Assembly (NCBI RefSeq): GCF_003669015.1 | Contig: NZ_CP033069.1 | Span: forward strand, 1,739,001 to 1,803,000 | From: Acidovorax sp. 1608163 | GTDB lineage: Bacteria; Pseudomonadota; Gammaproteobacteria; Burkholderiales; Burkholderiaceae_C | DNA: 64,000 nucleotides | Direction of reading: 5' to 3' | Shown here: positions 6,312-42,090 of the stretch, piece by piece | Numbering within the stretch: position 1 is the stretch's first letter | How the letters are laid out: every line of letters starts with the position of its first letter | Position numbers and translations under genes: made by a program | The notes under the pieces: model-generated | Told to the model about the DNA's origin: nothing | What the model saw: only the letters and a program-made list of their open reading frames with translations | Database searches by the model: none

Positions 6312-6485
6312 GTTGCATGCCGCGCTGATTGGCCAAAACCGCAGCCGAGCGGCCCAGCCATCCTGGCGCCGTCGGCACGGTCTTTGCTGCTTGCGCCATC
6401 GAAGTCTGGGCCGCCACGGCGTGCCAGTGTCTGCCCCGCAATGCAGGGGCCAAAAAATCAAACAGTTAACAACGAGGGAGTCAGC

Positions 6486-7082
6486 ATGATTGAAGTGAGC
6501 GGTGGGGTCGTGGGCGTGTCAGACAAAGCGGTGTTTTTCAGCACCCTCAAAACCCTGGCGCCAGACGCCGTGGCCGCCTTGGGCAAGGGTGACAAAGCCA
6601 AGCTGGGAGAGCACGGCATCGTGATCGAGAAGGACAAGGTCGCTTCGGTGCACGCCGTCAAGGACGCCAAGTTCACCACCGTCATCTCTGCCAAGGGCAT
6701 GGGCGACGACATCGGGGTGCACGCCCTGAGTGAGGCCGCACAACAGCGCATCGTTGCCAGCGTGCAAGCCCTGCTAGGCCGCAAGGGCCAGCAAGCGCAA
6801 GTGCAAGCGGGCCTCTTCCAGCGCTCGGGCAAATCCATCGTGCTGGCGGTCTGCAGCCTGGTGCTGACGGCGGCGTTTTATTACATCGTCTCGTCCCTGC
6901 ACAGCGACTCGGTGCAGCGCACCGGCAAAAACGCGGGCAAGGAAGAGTTTTTGTACTCCATCGCTCACACCCTGGGGCCCACGGGGACCTTGGTGGCAGG
7001 TGGCTTGGTCACCGCGTTGTTTGTGTTTGCCGCTTTCAAGAACAGCAAGAAGAACTGGGTGACTCAGCGGTATTCGTTCTGA
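6486..7082 (+). CDS. Unknown protein with two C-terminal membrane helices
   Basis: A 198-residue protein I do not recognise. The ATG follows GAGGGAGTCAGC, a good ribosome site. Residues 1-115 are soluble and rich in V, K and A. Two hydrophobic segments follow, at about 120-140 (SIVLAVCSLVLTAAFYYIVS) and 170-188 (LVAGGLVTALFVFAAF). A lysine-rich tail ends in YSF. The topology suggests a cytoplasmic domain anchored by a helical hairpin. Codon use is like its neighbours. No neighbour suggests a pathway. Confidence 0.7.
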   Translation: MIEVSGGVVGVSDKAVFFSTLKTLAPDAVAALGKGDKAKLGEHGIVIEKDKVASVHAVKDAKFTTVISAKGMGDDIGVHALSEAAQQRIVASVQALLGRKGQQAQVQAGLFQRSGKSIVLAVCSLVLTAAFYYIVSSLHSDSVQRTGKNAGKEEFLYSIAHTLGPTGTLVAGGLVTALFVFAAFKNSKKNWVTQRYSF

Positions 7083-7234
7083 GTGGGTTTAGGCTGGGGC
7101 GCAGAGGGCCGAGTCAGTGCCTCTGGGTCATGTGCTCTGTTGCGAGGTCGGATGAAGGGGCGTTGAATTGCTCCTGGATGTGCCTGCACTGTCATGCAAT
7201 GGGATTTACGGCCAAGAGCAACCGGTGGTAGTTA

Positions 7235-7333
7235 GAGAACGTCGATGCTCAAGGTCGGCACTGACCGGAACACAATAGACGCGGCAAAGCCGCATTCTTC
7301 AGTTGTGTTTCCGTGTCGAGCGCAAAGTTAGGA
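7235..7333 (-). other. attC-like imperfect palindrome
   Basis: Read on the minus strand just after the stop of the next gene: CCTAACTTTGCGC, then arms CGGAAACACAA and TTGTGTTCCG (one unpaired A in the left arm) around an inner GCGGC-TTT-GCCGC hairpin, then TTGAGCATCGACGTT. A CTAAC box, arms with a bulged base and a length of about 100 bases are what integron attC sites look like. The right-hand box (GTTCTCT) fits the GTTRRRY consensus poorly, so this is a candidate only. Confidence 0.45.
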
Positions 7334-7341
7334 ATAGCTTG

Positions 7342-7869
7342 CTATTCAATTGGACGAAGACCGCGACGGACACGATCTTGGTTGTAGAGTTCGTTGCGAA
7401 AGGCATTGGGATCGCTCATGCCGTCGAGTGCCTGCCAGATTTCCTCGCGTGAAGCAGCTACGTTGAATCCGGCGGCAACCAGAGCTGCACGGGTATCGTT
7501 AAAAGCCTCGTCGTCCATATCCGACACTGCAACGTAGTCTGGCACTGTGGCTGCCACGAGGTTGTACTGCCCTTCATTGTCGAGACGCACTACTGGAGCA
7601 CGTTCTAATGGCGTTTTCTCGGGACCGCGCCACAGGCCAACAAAGCCGCCCTCTTGGTCTCGACCGAACCAAGCGATGAGCTTGTTCGTCGCGTCCATTG
7701 CCGCAACGTTTGCCATGGTGTCGGGATCGGCACGGTCAGTTTCGTTCAAGTAGCTTGTGTCCGAGGGTTCTGCCCATTCTGGATCATCTATGAATTCAAA
7801 CTCAATCTGATCCAGCACAGTCTGAAGATTAGCGAGATTTTTCTGAAGTCGATTTACGTCGGGCGTCAT
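7342..7869 (-). CDS. Unknown acidic protein in a cassette-like unit
   Basis: A 175-residue acidic, soluble protein with no membrane segment or signal peptide. The ATG follows GAAGAAGGAAA. A central stretch (IAWFGRDQEGGFVGLWRG, about 68-85, then VVRLDNEGQYNLVAATVPDYVA) recalls SMI1/KNR4 (SUKH)-type immunity proteins, which carry such WFGRD...GGxxGLW patterns, but the match is weak. There is no toxin gene beside it. It lies exactly between an attC-like hairpin downstream and an attI/attC-type core upstream, in the orientation expected of an integron cassette gene. It is visibly less GC-rich than its neighbours, which fits recent acquisition. Confidence 0.65.
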   Translation of the reverse strand: MTPDVNRLQKNLANLQTVLDQIEFEFIDDPEWAEPSDTSYLNETDRADPDTMANVAAMDATNKLIAWFGRDQEGGFVGLWRGPEKTPLERAPVVRLDNEGQYNLVAATVPDYVAVSDMDDEAFNDTRAALVAAGFNVAASREEIWQALDGMSDPNAFRNELYNQDRVRRGLRPIE

Positions 7870-7922
7870 AGCGGGTTTCCTTCTTCCAGGGGATCGCAGT
7901 CGAGAGATTGGGGGGGGGGTTA

Positions 7923-8060
7923 GCCTAACGTGACGCGTCCCGCAAAACCTGCGGGATAAACTGGACCGTGCGGAATATTCTGGGCATTGATTCCTCCGGG
8001 AAGTGACTTACAGCATGGGTTTCCAGGCGGTCACTTGTTTAGATGCCCAGGTATAGAAAT
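7923..8060 (-). other. attI-like region with integrase-type promoter, integrase missing
   Basis: On the minus strand a perfect GTTAGGC core (7929-7923) precedes the cassette-like gene. About 110 bases further out, on the plus strand, 8034-8060 reads CTTGTTTAGATGCCCAGG then TATAGAAAT. From memory this parallels the class 1 integron intI1 promoter (TTGCTGCTTGGATGCCCGAG then GCATAGACTG). The orientation is right: an integrase would be read rightward, the cassette leftward. No integrase-like frame follows, so this would be a relic. The comparison is by recall and needs alignment. Confidence 0.4.
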
Positions 8061-8308
8061 TCTGCGAAACCCGGCAAGCGTTAAGTCCGCAAACTATATC
8101 GTGCCAGTAGGTTGAACCGGGCTCGCCTTGTGTACGCTTTGGGCGCCGATCAATCTGAATCTATGGCTGGTTTTGGGGAGGGGGGCCCACTATCGGCTCA
8201 GGGCCCCAAGCTGTCGATCACATGCGGCAGATGATCACTGTCGTATCTGGCGGACGGGGCGCGGATCTTGCGCCTTCGACATCGTCAGCCTTAGCAATCT
8301 CTGTAATT
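8061..8308. other. Intergenic DNA without recognisable gene
   Basis: About 250 bases where an integron integrase would be expected. All frames are short and none resembles a tyrosine recombinase. Composition is mixed, including GGGGAGGGGGGCCC near 8175. I see no convincing gene or RNA here. Confidence 0.5.
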
Positions 8309-8360
8309 TGCTATCTATTTAATAGCTGTTGGCGCTTATTCCAAAAGCGCTAAGCACTGT
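8309..8360 (+). repeat. Two-hairpin dispersed repeat, copy 3
   Basis: Copy of the dispersed element (GCTATCTATTTAATAGC arm pair, then GGCGCTTATT...AAAGCGCTAAGC). It separates the integron-like relic from the malonate block. Confidence 0.8.
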
Positions 8361-41716: not shown

Positions 41717-41782
41717 ACAGCTCTCGATTGTAGGGTCGTCTGTTCCAGGCGGGGGATGCAGAGGCCCTAAAATCCGCGAGTT

Positions 41783-41988
41783 GGTGCTCGCTGCTTGGTT
41801 CACAGGCTGCAGTTCAACGGGAAGCAGGAAGGCGACCACCACGGTGGCATGCCCGGCCTGCGCTGCCCCCGCAACGGTCAGCGGACGGATCGCTTGATCC
41901 TCTCTCCATTCACACACGCCACTGGGGGCCTTGAACAAGCCCCTGGGAAGGCCTTGGAGAGTGTTCCGCCAGCCCGGATACCGGCCAA
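41783..41988 (+). promoter_or_regulatory. Cobalamin riboswitch
   Basis: An ordered set of AdoCbl-riboswitch elements: GTTCAACGGGAAGCAGG near 41812, GGTGGCATGCCCGGCC, the B12-box-type core GCTGCCCCCGCAACGGTCAG (41860-41879), CCACTGGGGGCCTTG, CTGGGAAGGCC and CAGCCCGGATACCGGCC at the end. It lies about 100 bases before btuB on the same strand and should repress the operon when adenosylcobalamin is plentiful. Confidence 0.92.
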
Positions 41989-42090
41989 CACGGTGGTTGT
42001 GCGCGACCCATGGTGTCGCTGCGCAGCCGTATCACCCACACGCTGGCGGGGAGGCCGGCACGGGTTGTTTGTTGATTGAGTTCCCCCACG

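Follow-up and report, generated by a model that had tools for sequence, protein, structure and literature searches.

A 1017-bp unit in the genome of Acidovorax sp. 1608163 is best explained as a MITE-like, non-autonomous integron platform that carries one cassette and would be loaded in trans by IntI, a reading to which we give a probability of roughly 0.77. The unit lies in the window, the whole stretch of 64,000 nucleotides analysed here. Its attC site, the statistics of attC placement across the genus and a survey of first cassettes support the proposal of the initial annotation that it is an integron without its own integrase, holding a single cassette. Sequence comparison, the basis of the whole analysis, shows that several orthologous platforms, truncated in each species, differ completely in their cassettes. 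In window coordinates, the unit consists of the following parts.

7205..8221, no strand assigned: whole unit from right end (RE) to left end (LE), 1017 bp, joining the RE match (7252-7205) and the attI/LE match (7923-8221)
7205..7252, minus strand: RE, the conserved segment beyond the last attC; nhmmer match to the RE profile, E 1e-3
7247..7333, minus strand: attC with outer core CTTGAGC; cmsearch match, 33.9 bits, E 2.4e-5
7342..7869, minus strand: cassette gene of 175 aa, an open reading frame with 118 homologues and no family assigned
7923..7929, minus strand: attI/cassette core GTTAGGC, read from the sequence; the boundary at which 24 aligned rows diverge
7923..8012, minus strand: attI region, columns 1-90 of a 54-copy alignment; found next to intI in other genomes as well
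8034..8050, plus strand: LexA box from the intI promoter, decayed and reading CTTGTTTAGATGCCCAG
8061..8104, plus strand: what is left of the start of intI, roughly eight codons plus a small piece from further on, from comparison by eye with intI starts
8105..8221, plus strand: tail and LE with the palindrome CGGCTCAGGGCCC, reaching profile position 304

The GTTAGGC core is present where it had been reported. Trained on 29 attC sites from arrays of integrons in the genus (with 91.1% of cells in the training alignment paired and 11 pairs changed on both sides), a covariance model gives 7333-7247 on the minus strand as its sole match up to E 10 in the 64-kb window, recovers the same site with search filters off and thereby bears out the earlier recognition of an attC-like hairpin. 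The hairpin ends at 7247, not at 7235 as first described, and its outer core reads CTTGAGC, not GTTRRRY. In sequence, this attC is 84% identical over 75 bp to one in the array of L061, an integron with intI. Because its outer core has lost the G at the crossover point, the window copy may be partly locked, perhaps fixed in place.

The low-GC gene of unknown function is likewise real: its 175-codon frame has a GC content of 53.8%, against 63.4% for the window, a value as low as in 2% of 528-bp stretches, and its product matches no Pfam, NCBIfam or PADLOC family at E 1. Many of the 118 homologues come from short metagenome contigs; the gene is found in one of 47 genomes of the genus, along with three distant relatives at 34-36% identity, and has no match in the plasmid collection. 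The predicted fold of the protein is confident and weakly resembles HPF1, an Rhs immunity protein and Knr4. The leader of this gene, between core and start codon, includes ten consecutive G at 7910-7919 (C on the cassette strand), which probably form a hotspot of slippage. No clear Pc promoter emerged; a consensus scan returned a single minus-strand site, at 8217-8189 inside LE, against 0.2 expected.

No integron integrase over the family cut-off lies near the unit, as the initial annotation had it, and the start codon appears lost in the intI remnant on comparison by eye. The sole over-cut-off match in the Acidovorax sp. 1608163 genome is 1.5 Mb away; there are five weaker ones, three among the matches listed. 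With one attC and no nearby intI over cut-off, the unit falls under the definition of a CALIN; compared with a complete integron, it has the attC cassette and, judging by homology, an attI with its core, and lacks the adjacent intI.

Several further features surround the unit. A short hairpin-like repeat at 8305-8352 (TTAATAGCT..GGCGCTTATTCCAAAAGCGCTAA) matches many places in genomes of the genus. The open reading frame at 6384-7082 has no counterpart in the lgt-GntR intergenic region of the five relatives inspected there; similar DNA occurs elsewhere in two genomes (G016, 72%; G008, 69%), and the frame is perhaps another insertion at the same place as the unit. A cobalamin riboswitch (71.4 bits) lies at 41765-42003.

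Several lines of evidence place the unit in a dispersed family. First, a DNA search with the region revealed a dispersed repeat at 7923-8211, which starts with the GTTAGGC core. This piece of about 300 bp, comprising attI, truncated intI and LE, has a match in 36 of 47 Acidovorax genomes and occurs at 11 places in that of Acidovorax sp. 1608163, the window included. In a first alignment of 24 rows (the window and 23 copies whose match begins near the core), similarity ends at the recombination core and gives way to unrelated DNA, often with a nearby start codon. A profile made from 20 of these rows and searched over 101 sequences gave 112 matches, many spanning position 1-5 to about 300. In the dispersed copies, some eight codons of intI and a small piece from further on remain ahead of the tail; the deletion joint was compared by eye. 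A typical copy, L022, has no match among 72,556 plasmid records.

Second, the copies are associated with cassettes across the genus. Within 2.5 kb on the cassette side, an attC match of at least 22 bits was found for 54 of 86 core-ended copies (from 81 loci searched) and no attC match for the other 32, mostly lower-scoring ones. By scripted count, 83 of 85 attC matches of at least 22 bits lie on the expected side and strand, the other two being beside L083, a copy excluded by the filter. Because most loci were fetched with a longer flank towards the cassettes, the side is in part set by design; the strand is not. Among 88 cores, two of them from integrons with intI, 45 fit RYYYAAC at all four variable positions, against 5.5 expected. 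In 55 units, that of the window among them, the first cassette contains a reading frame, sought no further than the first attC: in 52 it started at most 66 bp from the core, and in 41 the distance from the end of the stop codon to the start of the attC lay between -6 and +17 bp. These 55 first-cassette proteins form 54 families, and a Pfam scan of 53 of them met 15 families, one protein each.

Third, the units have matching ends. A conserved segment of about 50 bp, RE, follows the last attC in many arrays (28 rows in the profile); the window copy, absent from these training rows, is among the weaker ones. The outer ends of RE and LE are imperfect inverted repeats, with 15 of 20 consensus positions agreeing. 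Over 33 rows, one a duplicate, they match at 7.2 of 14 positions against 3.9 expected, a level that 1 in 5000 joint permutations of columns attained. Units with both ends paired measure 0.66-2.8 kb, cassettes included. Similar to MITEs, they thus have terminal inverted repeats and dispersed copies; no target-site duplication was found, at most 3 of 39 rows, one of them a duplicate, agreeing in offset and length. An unsystematic look at the fetched loci noticed no transposase with LE/RE-like ends. Double-headed units also occur, in which two attI platforms are joined at LE and face outwards with RE at the outer ends (L068, 1925-5415; L035, 103-4162; L037; L076; L118; L156), and one arm of L068 holds a nearly full-length but frameshifted intI.

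Comparison of flanks shows many platform sites to be orthologous between species. At five such sites (L030/L082; L160/L161; L102/L126/L128/L098; L103/L110/L111; L077/L100), cassettes that do not align lie between flanks that do, and where an RE is recognised the alignment picks up again there or close by; L030 and L082 hold one and four cassettes, none in common. The platforms are mutual best matches at four sites (L030/L082, 95%; L160/L161, 92%; L103/L110, 88%; L102/L126, 83%); other combinations are not mutual closest relatives (L077/L100, rank 18; L102/L128, rank 6; L098/L102, rank 26; L103/L111, rank 23). Cassettes are unchanged in two orthologous pairs, L155/L157 and L040/L094, the latter from near-identical genomes, and four further orthologous groups gave no verdict. 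Conversely, different sites of different species have cassettes in common that are more alike than the surrounding platforms (L024/L079, 98% versus 80%; L078/L101, 92% versus 78%; L103/L108, 86% versus 70%), and an 837-bp cassette is 94% alike in L076 and L086. As a separate observation, units in six species (L030, L082, L103, L110, L111 and L039) lie beside the same RE-side gene with 83-95% flank identity, which marks a recurrent or ancient site.

The main rival explanation for this turnover is homologous recombination through the conserved ends, by which whole arrays would be swapped between units without IntI acting in trans. The 300-bp LE/attI and the roughly 50-bp RE are indeed common to many units, and the site L077/L100, with orthologous flanks around platforms that rank only 18th in mutual similarity, suits such an exchange. 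Against it, L030/L082, L160/L161 and L103/L110 keep the platform together with both flanks or the RE variant while all the DNA from core to RE differs, and in L024/L079 it is the second and third cassettes that are 98% alike, beside different first cassettes and in platforms only 80% alike. We regard exchange through the ends as an unlikely account of the whole. For sister platforms that are both truncated already, the simplest agent of cassette change would be an IntI made elsewhere in the cell.

A less probable alternative is that the units are ordinary relics, full integrons that each lost intI where they stand after their cassettes had been loaded. Broken intI genes do occur in several genomes, and L074 and L079 share an LE flank at which one species has a long but broken intI and the other the truncated form. 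However, 54 fetched copies, chosen for fitting the truncated layout end to end, share that layout and its tail. In a tree of these full copies, those of one genome do not cluster (23 label changes against a shuffled mean of 22.9); several repeat subfamilies coexist within one genome, and the closest relatives are often from other species. Moreover, cassettes differ at orthologous sites whose platforms are each other's closest relatives and already truncated. The initial annotation had thought a decayed copy plausible; decay of one integron in place sits poorly with the same truncated platform at 11 places in this genome and its matches in most congeners, with the shared layout of the selected copies, and with the presence in Acidovorax sp. 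1608163 of an integron (L057) that has an intact intI, an LE-like tail and an RE beyond its array. The cassette of L057 and one from the chromosomal integron of another species (L057 6488-6543 and L066 10314-10369) have 97% identity over 368 bp.

The platform is itself akin to complete integrons. Upstream of intI in several integrons of the genus, the sequence matches repeat positions 1 to about 150-160, so that the attI stretch aligns with attI/intI regions of other genomes and 8034-8060, first described as resembling the class 1 intI promoter region, proves homologous to the LexA-box and promoter region of intI genes in the genus. The nearest relatives found for the window integron are chromosomal integrons of Acidovorax itself. 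On average, attI (the first 90 columns of the 54-copy alignment) is the best conserved part of the repeat; the LexA box is exact in 9 of the 54 dispersed copies and within one mismatch in 33, compared with exact boxes in six of seven intI promoters examined. This kinship contradicts the notion of a single cassette inserted at a secondary, attG-type site beside an unrelated repeat, which we consider barely credible even though off-target insertion is a CALIN route given in the consulted part of PMC8618304: the upstream repeat is homologous to the attI and intI promoter of integrons with intI, and it adjoins the core in all 24 aligned rows.

How the platform arose may be read from 17 intI loci. 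An LE-like tail follows the intI stop in five of them (L057, L068 and L074 by profile; L060 and L073 by eye), with intI intact in L057 and L060 and split, by frameshift or breakage, in L068, L073 and L074. The tail is absent from the other 12, including L058 and L061, the two with attI closest to that of the repeat; the tailed loci, L057 and L060 among them, have a more distant attI. No locus among the 17 combines the closest attI with the tail. Given this mixed distribution, the repeat would seem to stem, by internal deletion or as a mosaic, from an attI-intI-LE platform, much as MITEs arise from transposons; no plain parent turned up in this set. Spread to new places might conceivably be the work of a transposase acting in trans on LE and RE. 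Once established, a platform would gain and lose cassettes through IntI made elsewhere in the cell, for which the one intact intI of Acidovorax sp. 1608163, at C1:3246040-3246984 and with ends of the same kind around its integron, is the candidate in the present genome. An integron integrase over cut-off occurs in only 12 of the 47 genomes, so most copy-bearing genomes are without an evident partner today.

These units resemble several known systems and differ from each. Class 1, or Tn402-type, integrons have 5′ and 3′ conserved segments; similarly, the cassettes here lie between an attI side and a conserved segment that follows the last attC, whereas no transposition genes were seen and most units are without intI. 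MITE-flanked integrons were reportedly described by Gillings in 2009. A link between MITEs and integrons, including MITE-flanked ones, also appears in the portion of PMC3934969 used here; the likeness lies in small size, lack of autonomy, inverted ends, a large number of copies and a tie to integrons, and the difference in that the miniature element is here the integron platform itself, with no target duplication found. Delta-attI-type cassettes, as excerpts of PMC12901181 present them, carry partial attI pieces still recognised by IntI; the partial attI is a shared trait, but theirs are remnants at the cassette 3′ end in mobile integrons, not dispersed platforms. CALINs, too, are attC-bearing arrays without intI; as far as the cited extracts describe them, they differ from arrays headed by a recognisable attI and truncated intI, with conserved ends and many dispersed copies. 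The consulted sections of PMC12444791 state that CALINs can be mobilised in trans and that Xanthomonas CALINs lie at relatively conserved places, and contain no mention of attI-headed arrays for the latter. Searches of an open-access library yielded no paper on dispersed truncated attI platforms. By the account in part of PMC9024848, IntegronFinder 2 needs two attC sites to report a CALIN at default settings and detects attI of class 1 only, so the one-attC window copy would go unreported under those settings; the same text gives 2961 CALINs against 2760 complete integrons in one large survey.

Integrase-less arrays are usually ascribed to decay, stray insertion or rearrangement, in line with the origins listed in the excerpted part of PMC8618304 (off-target insertion, intI loss and rearrangement). 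At slightly better than even odds, the Acidovorax units would represent a class of non-autonomous integrons, attI docking platforms of about 300 bp with inverted-repeat ends that spread like MITEs, are served by IntI in trans, provide many docking sites with one or few cassettes each and so constitute a fourth route to CALINs. If this is true, a truncated platform that keeps attI while changing its cassettes would be a distinct origin for integrase-less arrays, a genome would offer many docking places for cassettes instead of one, and the service of distant attI sites by IntI in trans would become testable in a natural system.
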